Below, in pieces: positions 27,983 to 31,005 of a DNA stretch of 36,544 nucleotides. The first letter of the stretch is position 1; every line of letters starts with the position of its first letter. This DNA comes from Chloroflexota bacterium (lineage in GTDB: Bacteria; Chloroflexota; Dehalococcoidia; Lucifugimonadales; UBA3495): assembly GCA_009840135.1 (NCBI GenBank), contig VXOH01000010.1, positions 1,515 to 38,058 of the forward strand, given 5' to 3'. The notes under the pieces were generated by a model. That model was given only the letters and a program-made list of their open reading frames with translations. It searched no databases and had not been told where the DNA came from. A program made the position numbers and the translations under genes.

Positions 27983-29107
27983 ATGACCAACACCTCAACC
28001 AATACCAGCAACAACCCCGACCTGGCCGCCACCGTTTACCATTCCGGGGGCAGCTACCCCGTCGTAGCCGGCTGGGGCGTCATAGACCGGCTGGGAGACT
28101 GGCTGGAAGAGCTGAACATCGGCAGTCCCGTTTATATCATCACCGACGAGAACCTGATGAACCGCTACGGGCGGCGGGCCCAGCGAGCGTTGCAGCAGAA
28201 GGGCATCGCCGCCCATTGCTTTATCATTCCTCCCGGAGAGCCCAGCAAGACCAACAGTCTGGCCCAGGCCATTTACGAGTGGCTGGTGGGCCTGAGAGCC
28301 GAGCGGGGCCACGCCATCCTGGCCGTGGGCGGCGGTGTGGTGGGCGACCTGGCCGGCTACGTTGCGGCTACCTTCCTCCGGGGCGTCCCCTTTGTCCAGG
28401 TGCCCACCAGCATGGCCGCCATGGTGGACGCGTCCATCGGCGGCAAGGTGGCGGTGAACCTGCCCCAGGGCAAGAACCTGGTGGGGGCCTTCTACCAGCC
28501 GAAGGCCGTGCTGGCCGACGTGGAGGCGTTGTCCACCCTGGGCAAGCGGGAATTGTCCGAGGGCTGGGCTGAGGCCATCAAGCACGGCTTCATCATGGAC
28601 GCCAACCTGGTGGACGTATTCGAGGAGCACGCCGAGGCGCTGATGGAAGTGGAGCCGGAGATCTCCACCGAGGTGATCCGCCGCAGCATGGCCATCAAGG
28701 CCGAGGTGGTGAGTCAGGACGAGCGAGAGACCCTGGATATCCGCATTTTGCTGAATTACGGCCACACCATCGGCCACGCCCTGGAGGCGTCCACCGAGTA
28801 CGGCCGTTTCATGCACGGCGAGGGGGTGTCCATCGGCATGATGGGCGCCGCCAAAATGGCCTGCGAGCTGGGCTTCCACGGCCAGGATGTGGTGGACCGC
28901 CAGTACGAACTGCTGCAGCGGTTCAACCTGCCCACCACGGCCCACGGCGTCGATGTTGAAGGCATACGCCGCGCCATGTCCCTGGACAAGAAGGTGGCAG
29001 GCGGCGCCAACCGCTGGATAATGCTGGACGGTGTGGGCCAGGCCTCGGTGCGCCGCAACGTGCCGGTGGAGTTGGTGGACAGGACGGTGCGGGAGATTGT
29101 GGGGTAG
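27983..29107 (+). CDS. aroB: 3-dehydroquinate synthase
   Basis: AroB converts DAHP to 3-dehydroquinate using NAD and a divalent metal. Motifs: PPGEPSKT, AVGGGVVGDLAGYVAATFLRGV, QVPTSMAAMVDASIGGKVAVN, SEGWAEAIKHGFI with a metal-ligand Glu and substrate Lys, GHTIGHALE and HGEGVSIGM with metal-ligand His residues. At 374 aa it is full length. The start has GGAG 8-9 nt upstream. The final 28 codons plus stop are duplicated 727 bp downstream, beyond a BrnT/BrnA cassette; the gene itself remains intact. Confidence 0.95.
   Translation: MTNTSTNTSNNPDLAATVYHSGGSYPVVAGWGVIDRLGDWLEELNIGSPVYIITDENLMNRYGRRAQRALQQKGIAAHCFIIPPGEPSKTNSLAQAIYEWLVGLRAERGHAILAVGGGVVGDLAGYVAATFLRGVPFVQVPTSMAAMVDASIGGKVAVNLPQGKNLVGAFYQPKAVLADVEALSTLGKRELSEGWAEAIKHGFIMDANLVDVFEEHAEALMEVEPEISTEVIRRSMAIKAEVVSQDERETLDIRILLNYGHTIGHALEASTEYGRFMHGEGVSIGMMGAAKMACELGFHGQDVVDRQYELLQRFNLPTTAHGVDVEGIRRAMSLDKKVAGGANRWIMLDGVGQASVRRNVPVELVDRTVREIVG
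29019..29107 (+). repeat. copy 1 of duplicated aroB 3' end
   Basis: This is the in-gene copy, running from TAATGCTGG to the TAG stop. Its partner is 29746-29834. Homology starts at TAATG and ends exactly at the stop codon in both copies. Confidence 0.95.
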
Positions 29108-29128
29108 GGGTGGCGGATGCTGGTACCT

Positions 29129-29157
29129 TTGCCCACTCACATTGGTATAGGTGCAAT
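29129..29157 (+). promoter_or_regulatory. candidate promoter of the brnT-brnA pair
   Basis: TTGCCC (29129-29134), a 17-bp spacer and TGCAAT (29152-29157), each 4/6 to consensus. It lies between the aroB stop and the BrnT start. Confidence 0.3.
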
Positions 29158-29174
29158 GAAGGAATAGTTGGAGA

Positions 29175-29450
29175 ATGCCTTACGAGTGGGACGAGGAAAA
29201 GCGGGAAGAGACCTTGAGGGCGCGAGGAGTCGACTTCGACTCAATAGAACACTTTGATTGGAGAACCGCCTTAACCCGGCAGAGTGACCGAGGCGGAGAA
29301 ACACGATGGGTCAGCTCGGGTTTTATTGGCAGTCGCCTCTATGTGGTGGTATCGACCATGCGGGAAGAGGCCACCCGCATTATCAGCTTCAGAAAAGCCA
29401 ATAGCAGGGAGGTTGACATCTATGACAACGAATCGACGCAAGATAATTAG
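29175..29450 (+). CDS. brnT: BrnT-family ribonuclease toxin
   Basis: The 91-aa sequence fits BrnT throughout: YEWDEEKREETLRARGVDFDSIEHFDW at the start, GFIGSRLYVVVSTMREEATRIISFRKANSREV at the end. BrnT is a RelE-like RNase neutralised by BrnA. The key positions (Arg in TRIISFRKA, the Asp/Glu-Trp start) are retained, so it is probably active. It begins 67 bp after the aroB stop and overlaps the antitoxin gene by 29 bp. It lies between the two copies of the aroB tail. Confidence 0.9.
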   Translation: MPYEWDEEKREETLRARGVDFDSIEHFDWRTALTRQSDRGGETRWVSSGFIGSRLYVVVSTMREEATRIISFRKANSREVDIYDNESTQDN

Positions 29451-29748
29451 ACCTACCCCTGAAGAAGACGCGGAAATTAACCGTCAAATTGCGGAAGACC
29501 CGGACACCTTTGAATTGGACGAGGAGTGGTTCAAAGAAGCCAAAACCTCGGAGGAAATCATCCCCCACATCCTGGAAAGGTACCTTCAAGAAAATGAGGA
29601 CTTGGAATCGGGAAGAAAGGAACGGTTGCGAATTCTTGTGGACAAGGAAGTGCTGGACTACTTCCGCAACCAGGGCGGCGATTGGCATTCCCGGATTAAC
29701 GAGGCGTTGAAACAGGTTATGCTGGAGAACGGGGACACCACTAGGTAA
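29422..29748 (+). CDS. brnA: BrnA-family antitoxin
   Basis: The ORF track gives a longer frame from 29284, but the ATG at 29422 (MTTNRRKIIRPTPEEDAEI) has a GGGAGG site 8-9 nt upstream and overlaps the toxin end, as is usual for this pair. The acidic N-terminal arm wraps the toxin. The ribbon-helix-helix end is RLRILVDKEVLDYFRNQGGDWHSRINEALKQVM, the BrnA signature; the family represses its own operon. The stop TAA lies in TAATG, which is the first base group of the second aroB-tail copy. Confidence 0.9.
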   Translation: MTTNRRKIIRPTPEEDAEINRQIAEDPDTFELDEEWFKEAKTSEEIIPHILERYLQENEDLESGRKERLRILVDKEVLDYFRNQGGDWHSRINEALKQVMLENGDTTR

Positions 29749-29834
29749 TGCTGGAAGGTGTAGGCCAGGCCTCCGTTCGCCGCAACGTGCCGGTGGAGTT
29801 GGTGGACCGGACGGTGCGGGAGATTGTGGGGTAG
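29746..29834 (+). repeat. copy 2 of the aroB 3' end (displaced or donor tail)
   Basis: From ATG (29748) to TAG (29834) it matches the aroB end (29021-29107) at 82 of 87 positions with no gap. The open frame is kept, differing by one residue (Asp to Glu). The other four changes are silent. Sequence similarity stops immediately after TAG. The TAATG overlap with the brnA stop could even permit translation of the 28-aa remnant. Confidence 0.95.
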
Positions 29835-29912
29835 CAATTTAGCTGGAAATCTCGCTGTTTCCTTTTGAGGTAACTGCGGGACAGATTATTGGGTACCACC
29901 AGAGGTGCATTC

Positions 29913-30119
29913 ATGCGTCAAGTGTTGATCTATCCTGGCGAAGATGGTTATTGGGTGGTGGAATGTCCCAGCCTGCCCGGGTGCATTAGCCAGGGATTAA
30001 CCAAAAAGGAAGCCATCAATAACATCAAGAAAGCGATTGAAGAATACATTGCTTCCCTGGAGGACGACGGAATGCCAGTGCCTGAGGATAGGTTAGAGGC
30101 AGAGGTCCTTGTTGTATGA
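29913..30119 (+). CDS. hicB: HicB-family antitoxin
   Basis: A 68-aa HicB-type protein: QVLIYPGEDGYWVVECPSLPGCISQGLTKKEAINNIKKAIEEYI is represented by the hallmark VVECPSLPGCISQG and the following helix. It is the partially degraded RNase-H-like fold that binds HicA. The ATG at 29913 (AGAGGTG, 5 nt) is better than the TTG of the ORF track. There is no separate C-terminal DNA-binding domain, so this is the short form. It overlaps hicA by 4 bp (ATGA). Confidence 0.9.
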   Translation: MRQVLIYPGEDGYWVVECPSLPGCISQGLTKKEAINNIKKAIEEYIASLEDDGMPVPEDRLEAEVLVV

Positions 30120-30337
30120 TGAGACTTCCCCGGGTTTCGGGGAGGGAATGTGTGAGGGCCCTGGAGCAGGGTGGATTTATCGTCATACGGCAACGGAGCA
30201 GCCACATGATCCTGAGGCGTGATAACCCGTACTCCCGGGTGACAGTTCCGGATCACCGAGAGTTGGACACCGGTACCCTGAGAGCAATAATTCGGCAGGC
30301 TGGTTTGACGGTGCAGGAATTCAATAGTCTGTTGTAA
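30116..30337 (+). CDS. hicA: HicA-family mRNA interferase toxin
   Basis: The 73-aa protein has the double-stranded-RNA-binding-like HicA fold: RVSGRECVRALEQGGFIVIRQRSSHMILRR with the catalytic His in SSHMIL, then VTVPDHRELDTGTLRAIIRQAGLTVQEF. The usual Gly before Ser-His is Ser here, a mild change. HicA cleaves mRNA without needing the ribosome. Start ATG overlaps the hicB stop. The order antitoxin-toxin is common for the HicBA variant. Confidence 0.9.
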   Translation: MMRLPRVSGRECVRALEQGGFIVIRQRSSHMILRRDNPYSRVTVPDHRELDTGTLRAIIRQAGLTVQEFNSLL

Positions 30338-30450: not shown

Positions 30451-31005
30451 ATGCGTACACCCGTTACTACCCGGGATATGGTACCTGAGAGCCTGCGGGA
30501 GGCTTTTGACTCTGAAACGGCCGCTACCGGCGGCACCGTTACCAGCGGGCCTGGCTCTGCGATGATTAACAGTCCCGAAATGCGGCGCCGGGCCAACAGC
30601 CTGGTCAATTACCTGCGGGACGAATCAACCCTGCCCAAGCGCATCCAGGAACTGGCCATGATCGTCACGGCCAAGGCTAACCAGTGCCAGTATATCTGGA
30701 ACGCCCACGCCGCCGGGGCGCGCCGCGAAGGCATTCCGGACGCTTTTGTGGATGCCCTGCGGGACGGTCAGCCCCTTCCCCAACTGGCCGCCGACGAACA
30801 GGCGGTGGTCAACCTGGGCCAGGAGTTCTTCAGCACCCGCAAGGTCAGCGACGCCACCTTCCAGGCAGCCATTGACCAGTTCGGCGCCCAGGGCCTGACC
30901 GAGCTCTGCACTCTGTTCGGCTACTATGCGCTGCTGGCCTTCAATGCCAATACTTTCATGATTGATTTGCCTGACCAGCGGACGGAGCCGGTGCTGCCGA
31001 TTTAG
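30451..31005 (+). CDS. carboxymuconolactone decarboxylase/AhpD-like protein
   Basis: A 184-aa all-helical protein of the CMD family. It has the core LPKRIQELAMIVTAKANQCQYIWNAHAAGARREGI, where the usual CxxxH of AhpD-like proteins is represented by C-QYIWNAH with one Cys only. It therefore lacks the CxxC redox pair and is unlikely to be a peroxidase partner. The second half has ELCTLFGYYALLAFNANTF. Related SAR202-type proteins are common, but their substrates are unknown. The start has GGAGG 8 nt away. It precedes the DUF1800 operon by ~260 bp. Confidence 0.82.
   Translation: MRTPVTTRDMVPESLREAFDSETAATGGTVTSGPGSAMINSPEMRRRANSLVNYLRDESTLPKRIQELAMIVTAKANQCQYIWNAHAAGARREGIPDAFVDALRDGQPLPQLAADEQAVVNLGQEFFSTRKVSDATFQAAIDQFGAQGLTELCTLFGYYALLAFNANTFMIDLPDQRTEPVLPI

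Follow-up and report, generated by a model that had tools for sequence, protein, structure and literature searches.

A second aroB tail behind a BrnT/BrnA gene pair in a SAR202-type genome is probably the scar of one homologous crossover and one illegitimate joint

The window (i.e., the whole stretch of DNA that was analyzed; 36,544 nucleotides) comes from a Chloroflexota genome of the SAR202/Dehalococcoidia type (G000). It carries an intact aroB gene followed by brnT, brnA, a second copy of the aroB 3' end, a hicB-like gene, hicA, and a gene of the carboxymuconolactone-decarboxylase (CMD) family (Table 1). The identities assigned to BrnT, BrnA, HicB-like, and HicA in a preliminary description of this DNA agree with Pfam. 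BrnT matches the complete profile PF04365 (positions 1 to 77 of 77; E = 6e-21), and BrnA matches the complete profile PF14384 (positions 1 to 68 of 68; E = 2e-12). As adjacent and complete BrnT and BrnA genes, they are predicted to form a type II toxin-antitoxin (TA) module. Only these two genes lie between the two aroB tails, and an integrase is not visible there, as had been described.

Table 1. Features of the aroB region in the window
Feature	Position	Strand	Basis
aroB (3-dehydroquinate synthase), intact, anchor gene	27983..29107	+	Pfam DHQ_synthase and DHQS_C; 95-97% amino acid identity in congeners
Tail copy 1 (t1), functional aroB 3' end	29010..29107	+	Repeat comparison
Spacer/promoter region upstream of brnT	29108..29174	+	Aligns to donor-type G002 (z = 15); G001, without brnTA, not clearly (z = 2.2)
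brnT toxin gene (predicted)	29175..29450	+	Pfam; 98-99% identical to G002, though aroB is ~90%
brnA antitoxin gene (predicted)	29422..29748	+	Pfam; last 3 codons and stop (29737-29748) are the start of t2, out of frame
Tail copy 2 (t2), left-over aroB 3' end, outside any aroB open reading frame	29737..29834	+	Repeat comparison
hicB-like antitoxin gene, downstream of t2	29889..30119	+	Pfam
hicA toxin gene	30116..30337	+	Pfam
Carboxymuconolactone-decarboxylase family (CMD) gene	30451..31005	+	Pfam; conserved right neighbour in G001, G002, and G003

The two copies of the aroB 3' end are 98 nt long, 92% identical, and offset by 727 nt; they are the only two matches to this tail in the genome (second match, E = 1e-34). 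Over the last 87 nt (29021 to 29107 versus 29748 to 29834), 82 positions are identical without a gap, which reproduces the values first reported. The homology had been placed from a TAATG motif onward. Its real start lies approximately 11 nt upstream (ACCACTAGG versus ACCGCTGGA in the window), so that the last three BrnA codons and the stop fall within an out-of-frame piece of aroB tail. In G004, one of four congeners compared (G001 to G004), the start of the repeat is exact (CCGCTGGGTAATG), and the repeat (123 nt; 93.5% identical) extends 26 nt beyond the aroB stop. The notion of a repeat ending exactly at the aroB stop thus describes the window correctly and fails as a general rule. A GGACATGGATGGACAGGAT-like sequence immediately follows the aroB stop in G004, and G007 has a similar stretch (L035:3109-3127 and L036, after the aroB stop); it is possibly an old intergenic repeat.

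The two tails in the window differ in five codons (GAC/GAA [Asp/Glu], GTG/GTA, TCG/TCC, GTG/GTT, and AGG/CGG), four of which are synonymous, in agreement with the count given earlier. All three codon differences between the tails of G004 are synonymous, including a serine encoded by AGT or TCG, and the same holds for 4 of 4 codon differences at rph and 3 of 3 at a CoA-transferase gene, two similar loci described below. Since the differences are mainly synonymous, the two tails are best regarded as once-functional alleles and not as a gene end and its decayed local copy. The earlier readings of the repeat as other than a decayed local duplicate, and of one tail as derived from another aroB allele, hold accordingly. 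Within G000 or G004, the tails differ at 5 of 87 positions, while between the two genomes they differ at 10 to 13 of 87. Both genomes have the same brnA/t2 joint to within a few nucleotides and carry different downstream genes. Because tails are closer within than between these genomes, a single old event would require later allelic exchange or conversion, or else the site would have to be a preferred one. Either an old event followed by allelic exchange or a transfer of the bracketed unit may account for the two genomes.

Within the genus (five genomes, including G000), the locus occurs with one tail and the module, with two tails and the module, and without the module. G002 and G003 have the order aroB-brnT-brnA-CMD with a single aroB tail. 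G004 has aroB, brnTA, and a second tail, followed by other genes. G001 has a single aroB tail and no brnTA, which bears out the earlier view that the module was added; its site is occupied by another open reading frame (372 codons; L033:7091-8209) and a decayed hicB, located between aroB and CMD. These additional genes mark the aroB-CMD interval as a variable spot in the genus, and since a decayed relative of the hicB-like gene precedes the CMD gene in G001, the hicB-like gene of the window is probably recipient-side context. Thus, both presumed parental states for the aroB event are represented among the five genomes. None of these relatives showed the state that had been named as contrary evidence, a second tail in the absence of brnTA; the complementary state, brnTA with a single tail, occurs in two genomes (G002 and G003). 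Among the loci examined, brnTA behind aroB was not found outside the genus, nor was an exact donor found for the brnTA insertion in the window.

The aroB end of G002 differs from that of its sister G003 at 14 of 87 positions in the tail versus 13 of 363 in the preceding body (P = 9e-5). To judge by these distributions, the G002 aroB end is itself imported, which is independent evidence that foreign tails enter aroB in this genus. The brnTA pair of G002 is a mosaic (L083:1496-2070), in which brnT and the beginning of brnA match the window at 98 to 99% identity, and the 3' half of brnA matches G003 at 97%.

We surveyed BrnT loci across the order (109 loci) for closely bracketing repeats, using a strict test. 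Close brackets were present at 6 of the 109 loci versus 5 of 1,268 random positions (4 of 662 in G034, 0 of 200 in Escherichia coli K-12, and 1 of 406 in relatives); the resulting P value (7e-5) serves as a guide only, since two of the six are the aroB loci of this genus and the random positions did not undergo the same repeat screening. The six exclude L188 (a dispersed repeat) and L176 (a tandem BrnTA array), as well as four weak or distant candidates (L208 [31 nt], L172, L142, and L226). The search for other duplicated gene 3' ends around BrnTA or other modules, as proposed in the preliminary description, was productive (e.g., rph, gpsA, and clpB). Within the order, additional brackets that are strong or clear lie at rph, gpsA, a CoA-transferase gene, a HicB-like gene, a phosphatase gene, clpB, and a terminator. 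The terminator lies behind a collagen-like gene of G064 (54 nt; 96%); four relatives with an empty site have a single copy, and native downstream sequence follows copy 2. The same genome has a bracket at the 3' end of the CoA-transferase gene (47 nt; L248), whose BrnA (L248:2287-2673, G064:C27) covers only profile positions 1 to 32 of 68 and ends in 12 C-terminal CoA-transferase residues. Brackets were also detected at a HicB-like gene of G246 (145 nt; L184), a gene of G130 (50 nt; L204), and an enolase-family gene of G126 (67 nt; L180). Across brackets, the duplicated lengths range from about 47 to 200 nt.

The rph bracket is in G066, a single-contig genome (203 nt; 98%). Its copies are identical over 188 nt, after which the end of t1 differs and resembles G020. 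In G020, G065, and G059, BrnTA is located convergently behind rph with no duplication. As for aroB, both parental states are represented for rph. The second rph copy in G066 contains an internal 234-nt gap, which is not explained by the simple form of the model proposed below. Two BrnT-type units with a related small gene before each are arranged in tandem in G007 (L176/L195; G007:C2, about 2334800-2336000), an apparent tandem TA array. At another locus (L169; G160:C155), a BrnT-type pair lies between CTAACCCATCGCTGCAGCGGAC repeats that resemble integron attC sites. This was the only attC-like repeat, and an integron cassette was rejected for the window, where the repeat is aroB coding sequence.

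A scan of 800 kb of the single-contig genome G034 revealed the same anatomy around cargo other than BrnTA. The 3' end of clpB is repeated (145 nt; 89%) around an HTH (HigA-like) gene; a HigBA pair was considered here and rejected, since Pfam gives only the HTH gene and there is little room for HigB. The 3' end of a phosphatase gene (59 nt; 93%) brackets a PIN toxin gene and a small upstream gene, and the PIN toxin matches its profile only as far as position 100 of 115 and ends in the phosphatase tail. The 3' end of gpsA (139 nt; 97%) brackets a 409-codon gene, a non-TA cargo. The 5' end of ftsY, together with upstream sequence, is duplicated (70 nt) around an aspartyl-protease-like gene (G034:C1:201179-201834), which places this type of scar at the beginning of a gene. 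Two further candidates were not counted, one (323172) because it is a pair of tandemly duplicated genes and the other (395249) because it lies in a repeat-rich region. Gene-end brackets were not found in five 50-kb stretches of E. coli K-12. Thus, the bracket anatomy is special to neither aroB nor BrnTA, and since it surrounds non-TA cargo (i.e., the 409-amino-acid gene behind gpsA), the suggestion that TA modules use it to settle safely behind housekeeping genes is not supported.

The gpsA locus is the one at which the joint is resolved to bases. G030 has gpsA with the same cargo as G034 (88.5% collinear) and lacks a second tail, while G020 and G062 have a cargo-free gpsA with one tail. G034 has gpsA, the cargo, and a second tail; the sequence after its t1 is of the G030 type, and that after its t2 is of the empty-site type. 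At the cargo/t2 joint, the donor sequence GGCCGCCCCGGAGATCGCCGCGC resembles gpsA GCCGCGCTGGAAATCGCCGAGC, within a similarity patch of approximately 22 nt between donor sequence beyond the cargo and the gpsA tail. These alignments give a full set of both parents and the recombinant for gpsA, with microhomology at the joint.

We propose that the second aroB tail is probably the scar of a homologous crossover within the anchor gene combined with an illegitimate joint. DNA from a relative with brnTA directly behind aroB (i.e., similar to G002 or G003) would have entered a cell whose aroB was free of brnTA. Homologous recombination within aroB at one end would have left the gene intact, with t1 and the following spacer of donor type. 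The match of this spacer to G002, and not clearly to G001 (Table 1), points to a homologous end with donor-type sequence beyond it, and an intact housekeeping gene is the ordinary result of an allelic crossover in that gene. The other end, located just inside the 3' end of brnA, would have had no matching sequence and would have been joined illegitimately to the aroB tail. The t2 copy and the recipient's former downstream genes (hicBA and CMD) would have remained as the second copy. Two routes lead to this anatomy, neither of which needs an integrase, namely, homology-facilitated illegitimate recombination (HFIR) between sister copies, or end-joining of the fragment into a circle that then enters through one RecA crossover. 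Besides HFIR, the known fate of linear DNA is circularization with a single crossover, and in experiments HFIR usually deletes recipient DNA (PMC3240628); the duplication therefore points to a circular intermediate or to recombination between sister chromosomes. Within this scheme, we infer how the DNA entered, which enzymes acted, and that the aroB event used the route resolved at gpsA.

A second process may have acted in addition to this one. The brnTA pair, once bracketed by aroB tails, could move between relatives by means of its two aroB arms, an addition to the proposed crossover and illegitimate joint, not a replacement for it. Such movement is consistent with the joint shared by G000 and G004 ahead of different downstream genes, with the clustering of tails by genome, and with the near identity of brnT in G000 and G002, which exceeds that of aroB (Table 1). 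However, the bracketed form occurs in two genomes only, and both are explained equally well by vertical descent combined with conversion between the tails; we therefore regard this spread as possible and somewhat doubtful.

The preliminary description had likened the module to integrative elements at gene 3' ends. In site-specific integration of this kind, the tails would be attL and attR, the element would restore the gene end, and the integrase would act in trans or have since been lost. Many of the duplicated segments do end at or near a stop codon or terminator, which are typical targets of tyrosine recombinases, and the joint is nearly the same in G000 and G004. However, an integrase is absent from the cargo, the anchors are unrelated genes, with a 5' end (ftsY) among them, and the duplicated lengths vary widely and have no common ends. 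The joint also cuts cargo genes (BrnA in L248 and the PIN toxin in G034), the module and gene occur together without duplication at aroB (G002 and G003), rph, and gpsA, and the microhomology at the gpsA joint is with sequence past the cargo. Site-specific integration is thus improbable. Very unlikely, too, is a local tandem duplication of the aroB tail and brnTA with subsequent loss of the second brnTA, for which one may cite the 26 nt by which the G004 repeat passes the stop and the tandem BrnTA units elsewhere (G007; L176). Against it, the tail copies differ synonymously, as two functional alleles would, and native sequence follows copy 2 at gpsA and at the G064 terminator. Although the window and G004 are metagenome bins, an assembly or binning artefact has a negligible probability, given the same joint in these two independent assemblies and the same anatomy at other genes in the single-contig genomes G034 and G066.

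The movement of TA pairs that lack mobility genes between genomes is an open question. The same scar around other genes in related bacteria shows a way for such genes to spread without a mobility enzyme. Its footprint, a second and allelically different tail of the preceding gene, is visible from sequence alone and can be counted in any genome set. Therefore, the share of gene gain that results from anchored illegitimate joining is measurable, and any over-representation of addictive genes among such gains is likewise directly measurable. As a speculation that we consider rather unlikely in this general form, TA pairs and other small genes in SAR202-type bacteria might owe most of their spread to allelic recombination of the preceding housekeeping gene, on which they would hitch-hike, and the tail-bracketed units might then be reusable homology cassettes that enter any related allele or excise cleanly between their tails. 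If so, core genes would be landing pads for enzyme-free mobile modules.

Some phages and genomic islands insert into the 3' end of a gene and rebuild it (e.g., e14 and phage 21 at icd). As in those elements, the insert here lies between two gene 3' ends and the gene is intact. However, the present cases lack an integrase and a common core, their ends vary, their cargo can be cut, and duplication-free forms exist. In Vibrio cholerae, type VI secretion system effector-immunity modules are displaced and leave orphan immunity genes (PMC5361080). There, too, a conserved upstream gene anchors the incoming module, and the old 3' part ends up downstream as an orphan. That orphan is a useful immunity gene, whereas its counterpart here is a short, nonfunctional gene tail.

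HFIR has been reported in Streptococcus pneumoniae, Acinetobacter baylyi, and Pseudomonas stutzeri, i.e., in competent bacteria, with 3 to 10 bp of microhomology at the illegitimate joint (PMC3240628). The anatomy described here likewise pairs a homologous end, located in a shared gene, with an illegitimate end, and the insertion measures approximately 1 kb; microhomology at the illegitimate end is clear at gpsA and may also be present at aroB. Laboratory products generally carry deletions, whereas aroB, gpsA, and the G064 terminator carry duplications, and the evidence here is comparative. We therefore describe the process as working like HFIR and do not class it as classical HFIR. A joint treatment of TA modules and HFIR was not found in the literature searched.

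The aroB scar is a variant of the insertion with long, variable target duplication that is known for restriction-modification genes of Helicobacter pylori (Nobusato et al. 2000 Gene 259:99, as described in PMC1643837 and PMC3031569). As far as these descriptions go, both systems involve a small addictive gene pair without mobility genes. A long, variable direct repeat of resident sequence flanks the pair, and an empty relative has one copy of it. The corresponding features here are the 98-nt duplication (92%) at aroB, the single copy in G001, and the clean empty sites at the G064 terminator and gpsA. The present cases differ from the H. pylori system, as it is described there, in that the cargo consists mostly of TA genes and the group is SAR202/Dehalococcoidia. 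They go beyond that account in that donor, recipient, and recombinant alleles are identified (gpsA) and the tails are recognized as different alleles.
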